Source of the DNA: a virus
IMG/VR virus record: IMGVR_UViG_3300036820_000205
Coordinates: 1 to 36,283 of that record
Direction: 5' to 3' (one strand)
DNA length: 36,283 nucleotides
The stretch's first letter is position 1. The number at the start of each line of letters is the position of its first letter. The notes under the pieces were generated by a model. That model had not been told where the DNA came from and did no database searches. It saw only the letters and a program-made list of their open reading frames with translations. This document shows, one piece after another, positions 1,906 through 31,308 of the stretch. The position numbers were made by a program, and so were the translations under genes.

Positions 1906-2065
1906 AGACTCTTGCTGGGTTGAAGGGGTAGAGATGAAGCGCGTCTTCACCGCCCCGGCTACCGTGTTCAAGGGTTCCGGCTTCTACCGCAATGACAACA
2001 GGCCCAAACCTAAGCCCGAGGTGACCGTGACCAAGGACGCGACTGTGAAGAAGGACTCAAAGTGA
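1808..2065 (+). CDS. FmdB-type zinc-ribbon protein
   Basis: ATG 1808 gives 85 aa beginning MPTYEFKCPACGA, the hallmark N-terminus of the FmdB putative regulatory family, with a CxxC knuckle at the start. The second metal-binding pair is only partly recognisable (C-I-E-D-S-C). It then has the family's FKGSGFYR segment. The C-terminal tail is Lys/Pro/Thr rich. An in-frame start at 1754 exists but gives an unrelated Thr/Arg-rich extension and is rejected because the family begins at MPTYEF. The role of FmdB-type proteins is poorly established; nucleic-acid binding is inferred from the ribbon. The stop overlaps the next start by 4 nt. Confidence 0.8.
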   Translation: MPTYEFKCPACGARDEIEELMSEISETIVLCIEDSCWVEGVEMKRVFTAPATVFKGSGFYRNDNRPKPKPEVTVTKDATVKKDSK

Positions 2066-2607
2066 CCGTACAGCCCGGTACCATCGGCCTTACCCAGATC
2101 TCCGGTGATGTAGGCAAGCTAATCCGCATCGGCCAGCTCCTGAACGGAGACGGCTTCGCTGATTACCAGCACGCCTTCCTGTCGATCGCTGGACGTACTG
2201 CATCTGGCCCGCTTCCTGACGGCTCGATCCTTGAGGCTGAGCCAGGCGGGGCGCGCGTCGGCAACGTGAGCGAATATTCTCACATCTACTGGTGTGAGAA
2301 TATCGCCGCGAAGTACGGCAAGGCCCTGAATGACGTGGTAGCCGCGGCTCAGAAGTACATCGGCGTGCCCTATTCGTTCCTGGACTACCAGGCTATCGCG
2401 ATGCACCGGCTGCATATCCCCGGTGGCCGCCCGCTGCGTGAGTACGTGGACTCAACGAAGCACATGATCTGCTCCCAGCTCTGTGATCAGGCGTACTTCG
2501 ACGCGAACATTCAGCTCTTCGAGGACGGTCGCTGGCAGGGCTACGTAACCCCGCTCGACCTGTACACCCTGGACCGGGCTCTGGGCGCTAGCGGGTGCTT
2601 CAAGTGA
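2062..2607 (+). CDS. Papain-like (permuted NlpC/P60, YiiX-type) protein
   Basis: 181 aa from GTG 2062 in a 4-nt overlap with the FmdB-type gene. The order of motifs is that of permuted papain-like amidases: His first in QHAFLSIAG (H37), an acidic segment EAEPGGARVG (E60), then GVPYSFLDY and the Cys motif HMICSQLCDQAY (C137). In classical NlpC/P60 enzymes Cys precedes His; in the permuted YiiX/YaeF group it follows, as here. Such proteins cleave peptide or ester/amide bonds in cell wall or lipid. There is no signal peptide. A role in lysis is possible since small membrane proteins lie nearby, but a virion or unrelated role cannot be excluded. Confidence 0.65.
   Translation: MTVQPGTIGLTQISGDVGKLIRIGQLLNGDGFADYQHAFLSIAGRTASGPLPDGSILEAEPGGARVGNVSEYSHIYWCENIAAKYGKALNDVVAAAQKYIGVPYSFLDYQAIAMHRLHIPGGRPLREYVDSTKHMICSQLCDQAYFDANIQLFEDGRWQGYVTPLDLYTLDRALGASGCFK
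2274..2303 (+). other. Strong AT-rich hairpin inside the papain-like gene
   Basis: ATATTCTCACA (2274-2284) and TGTGAGAATAT (2293-2303) form a perfect 11-bp stem around an 8-nt loop. GCG at 2270-2272 and CGC at 2304-2306 can extend it past one bulged A. It lies within coding sequence and is unusually AT-rich for this genome. No T-tract follows, so it is not a clear terminator. Confidence 0.5.
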
Positions 2608-3840: not shown

Positions 3841-4035
3841 CTACGGGCAAGAGGCTGTTGCCGCGAACTCGGGGTCGTACGAGTTCTGGAAGCGCGCTGG
3901 AGCGTTAGTCACGCCCTGGGAGCAGCCACACAAGCAGGAGATGTGGCCCGTAGCGCTCATAGTCACACGCTCGCAATTCCAGCACACGACGGGAACGGGT
4001 TTATCATCGTCGTCATTGCGATCTACCGGGTACAT
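3841..4035 (-). CDS. Small zinc-ribbon-like protein, 64 aa
   Basis: ATG 4035 overlaps the upstream stop in a TGATG junction, so it is probably coupled to the phosphoesterase gene. It has an acidic run (DRNDDDDK) followed by VVCWNCERVT and SCLCGCSQG, giving CxxC and CxC pairs about 17 residues apart, suited to one structural zinc. Function unknown; it might partner the phosphoesterase because the two are translationally linked. Confidence 0.6.
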   Translation of the reverse strand: MYPVDRNDDDDKPVPVVCWNCERVTMSATGHISCLCGCSQGVTNAPARFQNSYDPEFAATASCP

Positions 4036-5381
4036 CAGGAGTACACCTTCAGGTTGGTCCAGCCACAGCCGACGCCAGGCGTGAGATCGACGGTCACCTG
4101 ACCGGACACTACCTGCTCACCGGTCTTGTGCCTGTACCAGGATGAGCCGCCGTCCATCGCGGGGACCTGAATCCAAGTCCGGCCGCCTCCAGTGAACTCC
4201 ACGCGCAGGTGATGCCAGTGGGCCGAGACCAAGATGTCCGCTTCGCCGATTGACTGACGGCCGTGGCTCTGCTTGCCCCACCAGTCGAGGACCTTGGCCG
4301 GGTTTCCGCCTGTTACGTGCCCGTGGGTGAAGCCGACAGTGAGCTTGGGGTCTACCTGGATAGTGAGGTGGGGCTCTCCGGCCTCAGGGAAGGCCCAGGA
4401 GACGTGCTGGAAGCCTTCCCGGTCTGAGAGGTAGTCCGCGGCGGCTGAGGCGCCCTCAATGGCCCAGGAGTCCGTGTGGGGCATAATCTGGAGCCGGGTG
4501 GTCTCGTCGTGGTTGCCGGGGACGACCGGAACGAGGACGTTCTTGGCGTACGGAGCGAGCGTGAGGAGCTGGTGCATCATCAGGCGGCGGTAGACGCGCA
4601 CCTGGGCGGTGATGGGCAGGTCCAGAGAGGCGATGTTCCGGCCGCCCTGTGAGACGATGCCTTCGATGCAGTCGCCTAGCCAAGGTAGCACAAGAAGTTC
4701 CACACCCCCCGACTCGGCGAGATCCTTGGCGATGTCGTTGGTGTACCGCGCAAAGCGCTCTATGGTCGCTTCGGTGCCACCTCCCTCGGGCTTGCCGAGC
4801 TGTAGGTCTCCCGAGGGAACCATGAGAATTCGCGGGGGGGCGAGAAGTTCGGTCTCCCAGAGCGGTGCCCGGATGGGGTACTGGGCGAGTATCGCGTCCA
4901 TGTCTTCAACGCTGACACCCTTGGGCTGCTTCGTCGCGCGAATCCAGTAGGCCTTGAGTTCGGCGCCGTTCTCACCGTAGGTCTGGTAGGTAGTGAGCTT
5001 GGTGATAACCCACTCATCCGGGTCAAGGTTCGCATCGAGCAGGAGCTGCCGGTCATCCGCAGACTGCTCGGCCGGCTGGAGCGGCGTCTTGAACTCGGCG
5101 GTGTCCCCGGAGATCGTGATGCCGGGTGTCCATTTCGTTACGGGTACGGCCTTGTGGGTGACCGCGGCGGGGCGCTGGGTGTCCGTAACGGCGTAGGGAT
5201 CAGCCAAGATGTCGGACGCCTCCATCAACGCGACGGAGTTTGCCTTGCGCCAACGGCGGACCGAGGTTTCCCCGCAGCCCCATCGCTGGGAAACCGCGTT
5301 GTGGGGTAGGCGCCCGTTCCTAAGGTCTGCTTCCAGATCCTTACTCTCCGAAGCGCGGTCTGCTAGCGACAACCTAGTCAC
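4035..5381 (-). CDS. Calcineurin-like metallophosphoesterase with N-terminal HTH
   Basis: 448 aa from GTG 5381. Residues about 27-46 (HNAVSQRWGCGETSVRRWRK) look like a helix-turn-helix that would bind DNA. The C-terminal two thirds carry the two-metal phosphoesterase motifs in order: GDLQLGK (D192, with Q in place of the usual H), GDCIEG (236-241), GNHDE (289-293), HGH (353-355) and AHWHH (387-391). This superfamily contains nucleases of the SbcD/Mre11 type and phosphatases. The DNA-binding N-terminus suggests a DNA substrate. The usual DxH motif being DxQ is a point to test. Upstream lies the hairpin group 5460-5631. No Shine-Dalgarno is obvious at the chosen start. Confidence 0.85.
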   Translation of the reverse strand: MTRLSLADRASESKDLEADLRNGRLPHNAVSQRWGCGETSVRRWRKANSVALMEASDILADPYAVTDTQRPAAVTHKAVPVTKWTPGITISGDTAEFKTPLQPAEQSADDRQLLLDANLDPDEWVITKLTTYQTYGENGAELKAYWIRATKQPKGVSVEDMDAILAQYPIRAPLWETELLAPPRILMVPSGDLQLGKPEGGGTEATIERFARYTNDIAKDLAESGGVELLVLPWLGDCIEGIVSQGGRNIASLDLPITAQVRVYRRLMMHQLLTLAPYAKNVLVPVVPGNHDETTRLQIMPHTDSWAIEGASAAADYLSDREGFQHVSWAFPEAGEPHLTIQVDPKLTVGFTHGHVTGGNPAKVLDWWGKQSHGRQSIGEADILVSAHWHHLRVEFTGGGRTWIQVPAMDGGSSWYRHKTGEQVVSGQVTVDLTPGVGCGWTNLKVYS

Positions 5382-5459: not shown

Positions 5460-5517
5460 TTCCCCGGCTCGGCGTCGAGCGTCTGGTTTTCGTAGGACCT
5501 ATGACCGAGCCGGGGAA
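5460..5517 (-). repeat. Hairpin element U1 (30-nt loop family)
   Basis: Stem TTCCCCGGCTCGG (5460-5472) with CCGAGCCGGGGAA (5505-5517), 13 bp. The next position (C5473/A5504) is unpaired, and inside it lies the 30-nt loop 5474-5503 with core TGGTTTTCGT at loop positions 11-20 (one base off consensus). Separated from U2 by 5 nt. Confidence 0.85.
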
Positions 5518-5522
5518 GTTAA

Positions 5523-5572
5523 TGCCGATAGCGTGCTCGATCTGGGTTTCGTCGTGAGTTTGGCTATCGACA
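5523..5572 (-). repeat. Hairpin element U2 (30-nt loop family)
   Basis: Arms TGCCGATAGC (5523-5532) and GCTATCGACA (5563-5572) pair at 9 of 10 positions (one C/A mismatch). Loop 5533-5562 is 30 nt with the exact core TGGGTTTCGT at loop positions 11-20. Seven nt separate it from U3. Confidence 0.85.
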
Positions 5573-5579
5573 AGAATAG

Positions 5580-5631
5580 TGCTCGGCGGCGTTCAGGACC
5601 TGGGTTTCGTATGGACTATGGCCGCCGAGCA
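5580..5631 (-). repeat. Hairpin element U3 (30-nt loop family)
   Basis: Perfect 11-bp stem TGCTCGGCGGC (5580-5590) / GCCGCCGAGCA (5621-5631). Loop 5591-5620 is 30 nt with core TGGGTTTCGT at positions 11-20. It lies 6 nt beyond the stop codon of the Tnp_20-like gene. The stem sequence is shared with U7 and almost with U9. Confidence 0.9.
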
Positions 5632-5637
5632 AGCTTG

Positions 5638-6597
5638 TTACTCCGAGACGATCCAGAGGTCCCGGAGGAATTCCTTCGCTACAATCCGGTGCGAATGGGC
5701 CTGCTGATGACCTGGGCGCCACGGAGATCCCGGCTCTCCCCATTCGGGATGCTGAACCGTACCGCAGCCATTAGAGCCCATCGGCGGACGCTTCTTGTTC
5801 TGGCACTGGCGGGTGTGTACCTTAGACGCGGCGTCGGCTTTAGCCTCAGTCAGCACCTGGAAGTACTTCGAGTTAGCGATAGATTCATGCCGGGAAGAGC
5901 GCTGAAGGTAGGAACTGAACGTGTACAGGAGCGGACGAAGAACGGTTCGCTTGCCGCCACGGAGCTTGTCTTCTCCGGTTGGGGAGTGCCCGAGGATATC
6001 CCCGCGAGGATTGGACATCGGGTCTCCGCACCCGGCGTACTGCCAGAGCTGGGAGACGCTGCGCTCGAATGGCTCTCCGGGGATCAGGTTCTTATGCTTG
6101 TCGTCCCACGCGTAGGGAGTAGCTATCCGCGGGTGCCCGAGAACGCCGATGACCCGGGCGAACAGCACGCCGTCTCCGAAGCCGGGGATCGCCCGTGCCC
6201 AGTTGCGGACGTGGTCGGGGATCTGCCGGGAGTACTCGTCGAGCAGCATGGCCTTGAACATCTCTTCCTGCTGCTCGGCCGCGCCGACGATGGCCTTGCC
6301 GATGAGGGAATCCGCGGTGTTGCCTCGCTCGACCCGGTTCACGGCGCTGACGCGGGCCTTCTTGGCATCGGTCAGGGATTCGGCGATGCTGCGGAAGGCC
6401 GAGAGGTCCCCCCAGGACATAACCGGAGCAGGCGTCTGTCGCATGGTTTTCGTCAATCCTTTGGCCTGCTCCGAGCTTGCTCCCTGCTGAGGCGCCACGG
6501 GGTTGGATTTCGTCTTGAGCGTGGCCTCAGCAGGGAAGTCTTCGATGAGCCCGAGCTTGCGGGCCTGTGCGGGGGTGTATTCTTTGATTATGGTCAT
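5638..6597 (-). CDS. Stand-alone IS110-type Tnp_20-like protein
   Basis: 319 aa; ATG 6597 has AAGGAG six bases upstream. The C-terminal half resembles the transposase_20 (IS116/IS110/IS902 C-terminal) domain: ARAIPGFGDG (135-143), SVSQLWQYAGCGDP (180-193), GGKRTVLRPLL (214-224), KYFQVL (244-249) and a closing PGHQQAHSHRIVAKEFLRDL (295-314). The N-terminal DEDD RuvC-like nuclease domain of full IS110 transposases (about 150 aa with early D and E) is absent; residues 1-60 instead are partly encoded by hairpins U5 (about residues 21-39) and U4 (42-58). An in-frame ATG at 6420, just past U4, would give a 260-aa form but has no ribosome binding site. Hairpins lie on both sides. The resemblance is by eye; a helical DNA-binding protein of another family is possible. 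Function unknown; RNA-guided DNA binding is a hypothesis. Confidence 0.6.
   Translation of the reverse strand: MTIIKEYTPAQARKLGLIEDFPAEATLKTKSNPVAPQQGASSEQAKGLTKTMRQTPAPVMSWGDLSAFRSIAESLTDAKKARVSAVNRVERGNTADSLIGKAIVGAAEQQEEMFKAMLLDEYSRQIPDHVRNWARAIPGFGDGVLFARVIGVLGHPRIATPYAWDDKHKNLIPGEPFERSVSQLWQYAGCGDPMSNPRGDILGHSPTGEDKLRGGKRTVLRPLLYTFSSYLQRSSRHESIANSKYFQVLTEAKADAASKVHTRQCQNKKRPPMGSNGCGTVQHPEWGEPGSPWRPGHQQAHSHRIVAKEFLRDLWIVSE
6424..6473 (-). repeat. Hairpin element U4, inside the Tnp_20-like gene
   Basis: Perfect 10-bp stem CGGAGCAGGC (6424-6433) / GCCTGCTCCG (6464-6473). Loop 6434-6463 is 30 nt with core TGGTTTTCGT at positions 11-20. It lies in codons 42-58 of the gene that starts at 6597 and ends 3 nt before an internal ATG (complement of 6418-6420). 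Confidence 0.85.
6481..6536 (-). repeat. Hairpin element U5, inside the Tnp_20-like gene
   Basis: Perfect 13-bp stem TCCCTGCTGAGGC (6481-6493) / GCCTCAGCAGGGA (6524-6536). Loop 6494-6523 is 30 nt with core TGGATTTCGT at positions 11-20. It lies in codons 21-39 of the coding region, 7 nt from U4. Confidence 0.85.
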
Positions 6598-6615
6598 GGC
6601 ATTCTCCTTGATAGG

Positions 6616-6661
6616 TGTCCGGCGTTTTTGCTGTGGGTTTCGTAAGATGCTTGGCCGGACA
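6616..6661 (-). repeat. Hairpin element U6 (30-nt loop family)
   Basis: Perfect 8-bp stem TGTCCGGC (6616-6623) / GCCGGACA (6654-6661). Loop 6624-6653 is 30 nt with core TGGGTTTCGT at positions 11-20. On the minus transcript it sits immediately upstream of the AAGGAG of the Tnp_20-like gene and could affect its translation. Confidence 0.9.
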
Positions 6662-6666
6662 AAGGA

Positions 6667-6718
6667 TGCTCGGCGGCGTCTGAGTTATGGGTTTCGTGCC
6701 TTGCATGGCCGCCGAGCA
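6667..6718 (-). repeat. Hairpin element U7 (30-nt loop family)
   Basis: Perfect 11-bp stem TGCTCGGCGGC (6667-6677) / GCCGCCGAGCA (6708-6718). Loop 6678-6707 is 30 nt with core TGGGTTTCGT at positions 11-20. Five nt from U6 and 17 nt from U8. Confidence 0.9.
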
Positions 6719-6735
6719 AGTCTATGTAATTGTAA

Positions 6736-6781
6736 GGCTGAGCGTAGCTTCTCTGGGTTTCGTGGAGCGTCTGGCTCAGCC
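6736..6781 (-). repeat. Hairpin element U8 (30-nt loop family)
   Basis: Perfect 8-bp stem GGCTGAGC (6736-6743) / GCTCAGCC (6774-6781). Loop 6744-6773 is 30 nt with core TGGGTTTCGT at positions 11-20. Eight nt from U9. Confidence 0.9.
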
Positions 6782-6789
6782 AAAAGGTA

Positions 6790-6837
6790 CTCGGCGGCGT
6801 TAAGCAGTTGGGTTTCGTACCAAGTTTGGCCGCCGAG
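6790..6837 (-). repeat. Hairpin element U9 (30-nt loop family)
   Basis: Perfect 9-bp stem CTCGGCGGC (6790-6798) / GCCGCCGAG (6829-6837). Loop 6799-6828 is 30 nt with core TGGGTTTCGT at positions 11-20. It lies 6 nt beyond the stop codon of the gene at 6844-7317, mirroring U3 beyond the Tnp_20-like gene; both are followed by GCAAG. Confidence 0.9.
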
Positions 6838-6843
6838 CAAGTC

Positions 6844-7317
6844 TTATTCGATAAGGTCCATGCAGGTGACGTTAGCCGTCTCGATCGCGAGGATAGCCTT
6901 GCGGTGACGGTCGATGTCTGCCTGATGTCCTGCGATGTACTTCTGAGAGTGATCGATAGCCGTCTGGTGCTGCCCGACCGTTGCCTGTCCCCACGCGACT
7001 TGTCCCTCACCGGGAACGTAGAACGTCTCGACGGCTAGCTTCTTGCGGGCTTCAGTGGCGGTGTTCACGTACTCGGTCCGGTGGTCTCCGCGGCGCTCGG
7101 CGCTAGACAGCTCCCGTTCGGCTACGTGCCACGTCTTCTCCGCAGTCGCGACGTAGGACCGGAGCATCGTGCTCGCGTGGTTCCGGACGAGCCCAAACAG
7201 GGCTTCAGCGGGGTCCTTGCCGGTCAAGGCCGCGTTCAACGCCTTCCGGGTGATGTCGTTCAGGTCACGGGTACCGGCGTCAAGCTCGGCCCGGATGAGG
7301 GCGGTGATGTCTGTCAT
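6844..7317 (-). CDS. Helical protein of unknown function in the hairpin locus
   Basis: 157 aa from ATG 7317, with TAGGAG upstream at good spacing. The sequence is mostly amphipathic helix: LIRAELDAGTRDLNDITRKA at the start, a long charged middle (TAEKTWHVAERELSSAERRG) and a C-terminal helix with repeated His/Gln (GQHQTAIDHSQKYIAGHQAD). A central FYVPGEGQVAWGQATV segment recalls small proteins of actinobacterial mobile elements and phages that lack a known function. It is flanked by hairpin U10 upstream and U9 just after its stop, and precedes the Tnp_20-like gene on the same strand, so the two probably form one transcript. It may be a partner of that protein or of the RNA. Confidence 0.65.
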   Translation of the reverse strand: MTDITALIRAELDAGTRDLNDITRKALNAALTGKDPAEALFGLVRNHASTMLRSYVATAEKTWHVAERELSSAERRGDHRTEYVNTATEARKKLAVETFYVPGEGQVAWGQATVGQHQTAIDHSQKYIAGHQADIDRHRKAILAIETANVTCMDLIE

Positions 7318-7335
7318 GATGATCTCCTACGGGTT

Positions 7336-7385
7336 AGGGCCTAGCGCCTGTCCTTTGGGTTTCGTTTTTACGGTGGCTAGGCCTT
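7336..7385 (-). repeat. Hairpin element U10 (30-nt loop family)
   Basis: Stem AGGGCCTAGC (7336-7345) / GCTAGGCCTT (7376-7385), 10 bp with one G-T wobble (7337/7384). Loop 7346-7375 is 30 nt with core TGGGTTTCGT at positions 11-20. On the minus transcript it is the first element, directly upstream of the ribosome binding site of the gene at 6844-7317. Confidence 0.9.
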
Positions 7386-29885: not shown

Positions 29886-29886
29886 G

Positions 29887-29959
29887 CTCTGGTGAGAGGA
29901 TTCGAACCTCTGCAACGCGGATTAACAATCCGCTGCTCTACCAACTGAGCTACACCAGA
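29887..29959 (-). tRNA. tRNA-Asn (GTT)
   Basis: On minus it folds as a full cloverleaf: acceptor TCTGGTG / CACCAGA, D arm GCTC...GAGC with AGTTGGTA, anticodon stem GCGGA / TCCGC around TTGTTAA (anticodon GTT), T arm with GGTTCGAATCC, discriminator G. CCA is not encoded. It starts 1 nt from the next tRNA. Confidence 0.95.
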
Positions 29960-29960
29960 G

Positions 29961-30033
29961 CTCCCCCACAAGGATTCGAACCTCAAGCCTTCGGCACCAG
30001 AAGCCGACGCTCTACCAATTGAGCTATAGGGGA
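29961..30033 (-). tRNA. tRNA-Gln (CTG)
   Basis: Cloverleaf on minus: acceptor TCCCCTA / TGGGGGA (one T-G wobble), D arm GCTC...GAGC, anticodon stem TCGGC / GCCGA around TTCTGGT (anticodon CTG), T arm TGAGG-TTCGAAT-CCTTG with wobble pairs, discriminator G. CAG codons are very common in the tail genes of this window, so it may support late translation. Confidence 0.93.
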
Positions 30034-30045
30034 TCGTACTCTTAC

Positions 30046-30051
30046 AGTCTA
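30046..30051 (-). promoter_or_regulatory. -10 TAGACT for the tRNA pair, overlapping a stop codon
   Basis: TAGACT on minus lies 12 nt before the 5' end of tRNA-Gln. Its TAG is at the same time the stop codon of the glycoside hydrolase gene (30049-30051). It predicts a start of transcription near 30039. Confidence 0.5.
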
Positions 30052-31308
30052 CGGGTTGAACGAGTCCTGAGCGTCAAACAAGTTCATGATATCCTGGCCG
30101 GCCCCGGCTCGCACCGCACCCTGAGACTGGTCGCAGCCCGAGGTCCAGCCCGAGTAGCTGTTGGGCGTGCTGTAGCTGCTGGTGCGGTTCATGACGTCGT
30201 AGCTGAGGTCGTTCTCGTCCGGTCCGAGGGTCCACATGGTCATGCCGATGTTCAGGCTGGCCAAGTAGCTCAGGTAGGTCGGCACCTCAGTGGGCGCGGC
30301 GCCCCAGCACTGACCGGCGTTGCCGTTGGGGTAGGCACCGTTGAACTCGGGGCCGACCTCGGTCCTGTTGGTCCACTCGCCGTCCACCACCGGTACGTTG
30401 TCCTGGGTGATGAGGTCCCCGAACTGGGTAGCCCAGTATCCGTCGCCGTACGGGTCGTTGCCGTTGGAGACGTGGTGGTAGGAGTACACCGAGTTGCTGT
30501 CTGGGTCCGCTATCAGGTCGGCCGGGGTAGTGATCAGGCTAGCGATCGGTGCTTCCTGCCAGATTTGAGCGGCCCATCCAAGCGCGCGGATGTAGTCGGT
30601 CAGATCCTGGAAGCCGATGAAACCGGTGGTGCCGTTGAGCCACTGATCGAGAGTCATGCTGGGCAGCCGCGGTTCGTTGAAGCTGTCAATGACGATGTTC
30701 GGGTCGCTGCCGTACGCCTGGTACATGTCCGACCAGAAGGTCTCGGTGTTGGCGGTCGGCATGTCCTCGGCCGTGGTGTTGCTGGTGCCGCCGAAGTCGA
30801 ACGGGATGCCCGCGTTGGGGCCGGTGTTGTTGGCTTCGGTCTGGGCGTTGATCACGACGACAAGGCCTAGGCCCTCGGCGTAGGAGATGGCGTCCTTGGT
30901 CAGGTTCTCGTAGTAGGTCGGCTCGCTGGAGTAGCTGGAGGGCTGGGTGGGATCGCCGTTGACCGAGTCCACGTACTGGTCCTGCTGGACCTGAATGCGG
31001 ACAGTGTTGCCGTGCCATGCCCCTGCGATGGCATCAAGCTCAGATTTCATCGTCGCGAGGGCCGGGGAGTTGGCGGCTGAGTAGCCGGACCCCACGTAGA
31101 CCTCGGACGGGAACTGGAGGTTGGACAGCGTGACGCCATAGTTAACGAAAGGCGTGCCGCCCTTGAGGATCGTCGAGCCACTGGTGGTGAACGCTCCGGC
31201 CGGGTTGGACAGGCCCGACGCATGAGCCTTCGGCGTGGTGAGGTAGGACCCGGCCGGGATGGCGCTGAACAGCACGACGGCAGCCGCGATAGCAGTTATT
31301 CGTTTCAT
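30049..31308 (-). CDS. Secreted GH5-like glycoside hydrolase
   Basis: ATG 31308 has AAGGAG upstream; 419 aa. Residues 1-30 form a clear signal peptide (MKRITAIAAAVVLFSAIPAG, Ala-x-Ala end near AHA-SG). The remainder looks like a clan A (beta/alpha)8 hydrolase of family 5: FVNYGVTLSNLQFP, GNTVRIQVQQDQYV, the acid/base motif SFNEPR (Glu 212), SYHHV (His 278-279) and the nucleophile motif VVDGEWTN (Glu 311). Family 5 enzymes retain stereochemistry and cleave beta-glucans, cellulose or mannans. No carbohydrate-binding module is seen. A secreted enzyme with a signal peptide is unusual in a phage: it may open exopolysaccharide or plant polymers, or be an auxiliary gene from the host. It follows a small membrane protein gene by about 20 nt. 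Confidence 0.82.
   Translation of the reverse strand: MKRITAIAAAVVLFSAIPAGSYLTTPKAHASGLSNPAGAFTTSGSTILKGGTPFVNYGVTLSNLQFPSEVYVGSGYSAANSPALATMKSELDAIAGAWHGNTVRIQVQQDQYVDSVNGDPTQPSSYSSEPTYYENLTKDAISYAEGLGLVVVINAQTEANNTGPNAGIPFDFGGTSNTTAEDMPTANTETFWSDMYQAYGSDPNIVIDSFNEPRLPSMTLDQWLNGTTGFIGFQDLTDYIRALGWAAQIWQEAPIASLITTPADLIADPDSNSVYSYHHVSNGNDPYGDGYWATQFGDLITQDNVPVVDGEWTNRTEVGPEFNGAYPNGNAGQCWGAAPTEVPTYLSYLASLNIGMTMWTLGPDENDLSYDVMNRTSSYSTPNSYSGWTSGCDQSQGAVRAGAGQDIMNLFDAQDSFNP

Follow-up and report, generated by a model that had tools for sequence, protein, structure and literature searches.

What are the ten hairpins, each with a loop of exactly 30 nucleotides (nt) around a fixed core, that are arrayed around an IS110-related gene in the virus record IMGVR_UViG_3300036820_000205? 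The whole 36-kb record (36,283 nt, here called the window) was analyzed, and its matches to tape-measure and head-tail adaptor proteins point to a tailed phage. A preliminary description of the hairpins, made from the DNA letters alone, knew of no family of this design and offered either a new class of arrayed structured RNA or a family of protein-binding DNA hairpins. Our analysis indicates that the locus is almost certainly a stem-loop TIGR-TasA system and not a new class. TIGR-Tas is a family of RNA-guided systems for DNA targeting that Faure et al. described in 2025 (PMC12045711), and stem-loop TIGR arrays with TasA were already part of that description, so the hairpins do have a precedent. 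The notion of protein-binding DNA hairpins is not favored.

All ten hairpins were confirmed at positions 5460 to 7383, each at the site first reported and with the common blueprint of an exactly 30-nt loop and a fixed core. Nine of them (U2 to U10) have perfect stems of 7 to 13 bp, and each of their loops is exactly 30 nt long and has the plus-strand layout G-N9-TGGGTTTCG-N9-TG with a closing G-C pair. The stem range first given was 8 to 13 bp; the perfect stem of U2 measures 7 bp. U1 has a 13-bp stem, and its closing mismatch, correctly singled out before as the exception to G-C closure, is C·A on the plus strand and a U·G wobble on the minus strand. Three copies of the core do vary, with one change each, all at position 4, and not with one or two changes at the third or fourth position; likewise, the blocks beside the core are variable but better taken as 9 nt than as 8 nt, since the bordering base is free in relatives. 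The units form clusters of three, two, four, and one with coding sequence between the clusters, and U4 and U5 lie inside the gene at 5638 to 6597, a placement that had been overlooked.

Perfect stems of at least 7 bp with a 30-nt loop occur 11 times in the whole window, 9 of them as units of the array, compared with 1 to 7 times in shuffled windows. Despite the differing stem sequences, 69 of the 70 cells formed by the inner seven stem pairs of the ten units are Watson-Crick, compared with a mean of 39 and a maximum of 60 when the right arms were dealt among the units in 2,000 shuffles, and several Watson-Crick pair types are used at five of the seven inner positions. The compensatory change claimed for the stems is thus borne out; covariation and homologous elements, whose absence had been named as grounds for abandoning the claim, are both present. 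Compared with shuffles, minus-strand RNA folding gave z scores of -3.6 to -5.1 for four of the five units tested (-4.5 for U1) and a moderate -2.8 for U10. Rfam held no match for the hairpins, phages yielded no match to the locus at the DNA level, and a motif scan of bacterial genomes returned 21 stretches with one match each, which is about the level of chance.

Read on the minus strand, every unit has the form stem-CCA-N9-CG(AAAC)CCA-N9-CG-stem (10 of 10, with UCA in U1), and each is a stem-loop TIGR unit in which box C (CCA) stands before and box D (CG) after each of the two 9-nt spacers, A and B. The stem closes on the loop with the box C/D pair, and this accounts for the constant G-C closure. 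The two genes at 5638 to 6597 and at 6844 to 7317 lie on the minus strand, and among seven motif-bearing records with phrog_4285 the gene lies opposite the TGGGTTTCG strand in all seven, with a minority of stray units on the other strand. Loci were also fetched by protein alone (26 viral loci) and searched with the motif CCA-N(8-10)-CG..CCA-N(8-10)-CG within a stem, written for the tas strand. Units were present in 23 of the 26; on the tas strand 158 units were counted, compared with 4 antisense units and 1 unit in reversed controls; because of this preponderance, we read the RNA of the window from the minus strand. The earlier proposal was right in that the hairpins are an arrayed family of structured RNAs, associated with an IS110-related gene and likely made from that strand, with covariation and homologues.

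In RNA sense, and all on the minus strand, U1 (5460 to 5517) carries spacer A TAGGTCCTA, the loop repeat CGAAAACCA, and spacer B GACGCTCGA. It is followed by U2 (5526 to 5569; A, AACTCACGA; B, GATCGAGCA) and U3 (5580 to 5631; A, TAGTCCATA; B, GGTCCTGAA). Within the reading frame of tasA are U4 (6424 to 6473; A, AAGGATTGA; B, TGCGACAGA) and U5 (6481 to 6536; A, CGCTCAAGA; B, ACCCCGTGG). The cluster of four consists of U6 (6616 to 6661; A, AGCATCTTA; B, CAGCAAAAA), U7 (6667 to 6718; A, TGCAAGGCA; B, TAACTCAGA), U8 (6736 to 6781; A, GACGCTCCA; B, GAGAAGCTA), and U9 (6790 to 6837; A, AACTTGGTA; B, ACTGCTTAA). Between it and U10 (7338 to 7383; A, CCGTAAAAA; B, AAGGACAGG) lies a gene for a putative protein of 157 amino acids (aa) on the tasA strand (6844 to 7317), which has no Pfam or PHROG match and has U10 upstream of it. 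CRISPR arrays have identical direct repeats of 25 to 36 nt, long spacers, and cas genes; such an array was ruled out by the 10-nt core, the 9-nt split spacers, and the palindromic stems of differing sequence.

The gene at 5638 to 6597 encodes TasA, a nuclease-less Nop-domain protein of 319 aa. The protein has no Pfam match, including none to a Pfam nuclease, matches phrog_4285 (annotated "transposase"; 2.3e-17), and on its own has no meaningful PDB match. When a family profile (A3) was built from 27 relatives out of viral contigs, its two best PDB matches were TasR (9mty; 1.3e-20) and TasH (2.4e-14). An AlphaFold model built with those relatives reached a mean predicted local distance difference test score (pLDDT) of 80, and in Foldseek all 11 of its matches with E < 0.001 were TasH or TasR, followed by IS110 recombinases. 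The conserved part begins near residue 62 (Nop core, about 6414 to 5641) and is without a RuvC, HNH, or DEDD part. The N-terminal extension (residues 1 to 60; 6418 to 6597), the DNA of which holds U4 and U5, is predicted to be mostly disordered, with a pLDDT of about 44 to 50 over residues 21 to 60, and is absent from most relatives. The gene first described as IS110-like is not a transposase; it encodes the Nop domain of a Tas protein, which is akin to the portion of IS110 that binds RNA and has no nuclease or DEDD domain. Tested for the features of TIGR-Tas, the locus showed a Nop-domain Tas protein, the lack of a nuclease, the boxes, variable palindromic stems, and an array on the same strand as tasA.

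The system is also found in cultured phages. By TBLASTN the tasA protein was located in 77 phage records, which with few exceptions are those of Mycobacterium phages, and the array region was matched in 74 phage records; we count about 74 cultured Mycobacterium smegmatis phages with the system. In Mycobacterium phage Kanely (L164, MN585976; 2640 to 2946 and 2971 to 3681), five units immediately precede gp71, and throughout these cultured phages (Fromanvirus; L164 and L165 to L180) tasA is annotated as a transposase, a hypothetical protein, or a helix-turn-helix protein with five units upstream. Across 17 aligned mycophage arrays, stems and boxes are 87 to 100% identical between the distinct units of a slot and spacers are 32 to 45% identical. 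Slot 3 shows the compensatory stem changes CGC/GGC, GTT/AAC, and CGG/CCG, and different mycophages have spacers in common, either singly or as pairs. Judged from these alignments, conserved stems with near-random spacers have the look of guides under turnover. In phage Rubeus a hypothetical protein, gp71, is annotated across the TIGR array (L169, 338 to 628) and is probably a spurious gene call.

Two large phage contigs from the same metagenome, G001 and G010, contain about 45 and 24 strict units, respectively, part of which stand head-to-tail at 37 nt (G001, L065 3372 to 5558; G010, L071 5118 to 5576). Their edges alternate between GCCCGGC and GCCGGGC, and any one edge can serve the unit on either side as a stem arm. 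Neighboring units thereby share stem arms, and their hairpins exclude each other. These arrays are a link between the dual-repeat and the stem-loop array types, which was proposed on other grounds in PMC12045711. Both the 37-nt arrays with palindromic common edges and the occurrence in mycophages go beyond the main text of that paper.

The position of U4 and U5 raises the further question of whether guide units can be part of the coding sequence of their own effector. The two units lie between the ATGs at 6597 and 6420, in an open frame, and code for the mostly disordered extension; the ATG at 6597 is preceded by the ribosome-binding site AAGGAGA, and the next ATG, at 6420, is without one. A similar order of a start preceded by a Shine-Dalgarno sequence, units, and Nop core was found in the related loci G002, L142, and L150, and in L151 (4547 to 4825) and its near-copy L152 five units stand in frame, as a Pro/Ser-rich insert that splits the Nop domain into two conserved halves. 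Stops in the units were counted whether or not the frame was open. In units next to the core there were 4 stops in 850 codons in the tas frame versus 30 in 1,704 codons in the other two frames (p 0.006), and distant units showed no such bias (p 0.56). It might be argued that the in-frame units are untranslated, with tas starting downstream (at ATG 6420 in the window) and the frame open by chance, since most relatives begin near that point and chance alone can keep a frame of 59 codons open. Given the good ribosome-binding site at 6597 with none at 6420, the order repeated in three loci, the rarity of stops in the tas frame of adjacent upstream units, and the units embedded in the Nop domain of L151, we regard this explanation as improbable.

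The main text of PMC12045711 places arrays on the upstream side of tas, the downstream side, or both, and a search of that text for overlap or in-frame units gave nothing; the in-frame overlap of guide units with tas, which is itself well supported, goes beyond that text. A regulatory consequence of this layout may be envisaged. In the phage TIGR-TasA branch studied here, guide units could double as coding DNA of their own effector such that guide loading and effector synthesis limit each other, a tentative proposal that we consider rather unlikely. If it were true, excision of a guide would destroy that tas message, and TasA seated on U4 or U5 would hinder tas translation.

How, then, might the locus work? 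A single minus-strand transcript would run through U10, the 157-aa gene, U6 to U9, tasA with U5 and U4 within it, and U1 to U3, and would presumably be cut into single hairpins, each of them one tigRNA; expression of a stem-loop array with TasA and its processing into single Tas-bound units have been shown for a relative (PMC12045711). In each tigRNA the stem would close at the box C/box D pair, and the loop would expose spacer A, the CG-AAAC-CCA repeat, and spacer B, with a TasA dimer sitting on the two box C/D pairs. The ribonucleoprotein is predicted to find an 18-bp DNA site, spacer A base-pairing to one of its strands and spacer B to the opposite strand, a mode of tandem-spacer DNA targeting shown for TasR and TasH (PMC12045711). 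The C-5 rule of the same paper, together with its 3' overhangs of 8 nt, led us to derive a predicted site with spacer A first and then the reverse complement of spacer B, a gap of 0 to 2 bp being tolerated. TasA would bind, open, and bend this DNA without cutting it. Since TasA cannot cut, its likely effect would be binding, unwinding, and bending that block a competitor, probably in the transcription or replication of a competing mobile element, although we put the silencing of competitors by TasA at slightly below an even chance. Taken together, the TIGR-TasA explanation of the locus, from transcript and tigRNAs to DNA site and competitor block, appears very likely, and that the units are guide RNAs for DNA appears likely.

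Several results weigh against this explanation. No target was found in the phage's own and related contigs, where matches were no better than those of randomly dealt spacers. A BLAST search with the ten units of the window and ten mycophage spacer pairs found no exact 18-nt target in 50,697 phage records, a search of the phage collection in which a planted 18-mer was recovered at E = 6 and only exact ungapped 18-nt targets were detectable. Box D is CG here and not UG as given for TasR, no sigma-70-like promoter was seen upstream of the array, and the count of G·U versus A·C in the stems (12 versus 8 for the transcribed strand) points in the same direction as the strand assignment without being significant. 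In searches with a gapped pattern, U3 had no match, and a mycophage spacer pair matched in six contigs that all represent one homologous prophage locus, a match judged to be chance.

The target might also be RNA, with the tigRNAs guiding TasA in the manner of box C/D small nucleolar RNAs. The Nop proteins of small nucleolar ribonucleoproteins (snoRNPs) act on RNA, and the TasA of the window has no nuclease that could report DNA cutting. Against this stand TasR and TasH, which have the same guide layout and target DNA, and the inactivity of TasR on RNA (PMC12045711); furthermore, no methyltransferase gene was seen beside tasA. RNA targeting appears improbable. Hairpins that act only in cis, as terminators, processing sites, or protein-binding sites with neutral loops, are very improbable. 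Such elements would suit their location, which is in 5' regions and in the gaps separating genes of a single operon, but no U-tracts follow the hairpins, none was called as a minus-strand terminator, and the loop core and boxes are fixed. In the mycophages, moreover, both 9-nt loop blocks turn over in stem-fixed slots and pairs are shared, which would be unlikely for a neutral loop. An IS110-family transposon with a multiplied bridge RNA, in which the hairpins would be target- or donor-binding loops for transposition or inversion, can be virtually dismissed: although IS110 has the Nop part in common with Tas (PMC12045711) and IS621 and ISCro4 come next after the Tas matches in Foldseek, Tas structures score far better, a DEDD/RuvC part and a Transposase_20 match are both lacking in the window, conservation of the protein is confined to the Nop region, behind 60 N-terminal residues predicted to be disordered, and there are ten single loops versus one two-loop bridge RNA.

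Elsewhere in the window, an exonuclease-like gene (4035 to 5381, minus strand; phrog_284, 5.9e-51) comes right after the array on the same strand. The window also contains a protein with a glycosyl hydrolase family 5 (cellulase) domain (30049 to 31308, minus strand; Pfam, 2.2e-14), a PHROG match to an enoyl-CoA hydratase/carnithine racemase-like protein (2062 to 2607, plus strand; 2.4e-15), and tRNA genes for Asn and Gln side by side (29886 to 30033, minus strand).

TIGR-Tas counts among the newest families of RNA-guided systems, and the role of TasA, the origin of the spacers, and the targets of the spacers were left open in PMC12045711. The layout with guides inside the effector bears on the evolution and control of arrays. 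About 74 sequenced M. smegmatis phages, which are amenable to genetics and are propagated in teaching laboratories, have an array of five slots beside a gene annotated as a transposase or a hypothetical protein; in them, questions of function, target, and spacer turnover could be addressed directly, and in-frame guides could be tested.

Published stem-loop arrays show the anatomy found here, and one such locus has a TasA and 13 units divided over three subarrays. Among known systems, a close likeness is to the stem-loop TIGR array with TasA of a Peromyscus leucopus gut contig (PMC12045711, Fig. 7). Like the window, it combines a nuclease-less TasA with separate hairpins in subarrays, and palindromic stems of varying sequence replace edge repeats; unlike it, the window has the fixed loop repeat CGAAACCCA, a loop of exactly 30 nt, CG as box D, and two units inside the tasA frame. 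With the dual-repeat TasR and TasH arrays (9MTY; 9W04 and others) the window shares CCA as box C, 9-nt spacers A and B, a Nop-domain effector, and, between box D and box C, a loop repeat rich in A; a TasR repeat runs from UG to CCA, and its loop is A-rich (PMC12045711). The dual-repeat arrays have invariant edge repeats, 36-nt head-to-tail units, and RuvC or HNH, in contrast to the free hairpins and the lack of a nuclease in the window, and the 37-nt head-to-tail units of G001 and G010, with their palindromic edges, are a form between the two. The bridge RNA and recombinase of IS110/IS621 resemble the window in their Nop-type RNA-binding domain and two guide segments per loop and differ from it in that the window has no DEDD/RuvC, has many single-loop guides versus one bridge RNA, and is not expected to recombine DNA. 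Finally, the box C/D snoRNP (Nop5/Nop58) shares the Nop domain and the box C/D logic with the locus, which is without a kink-turn or an L7Ae or fibrillarin partner, and in the characterized relatives of Tas the guide pair targets DNA.

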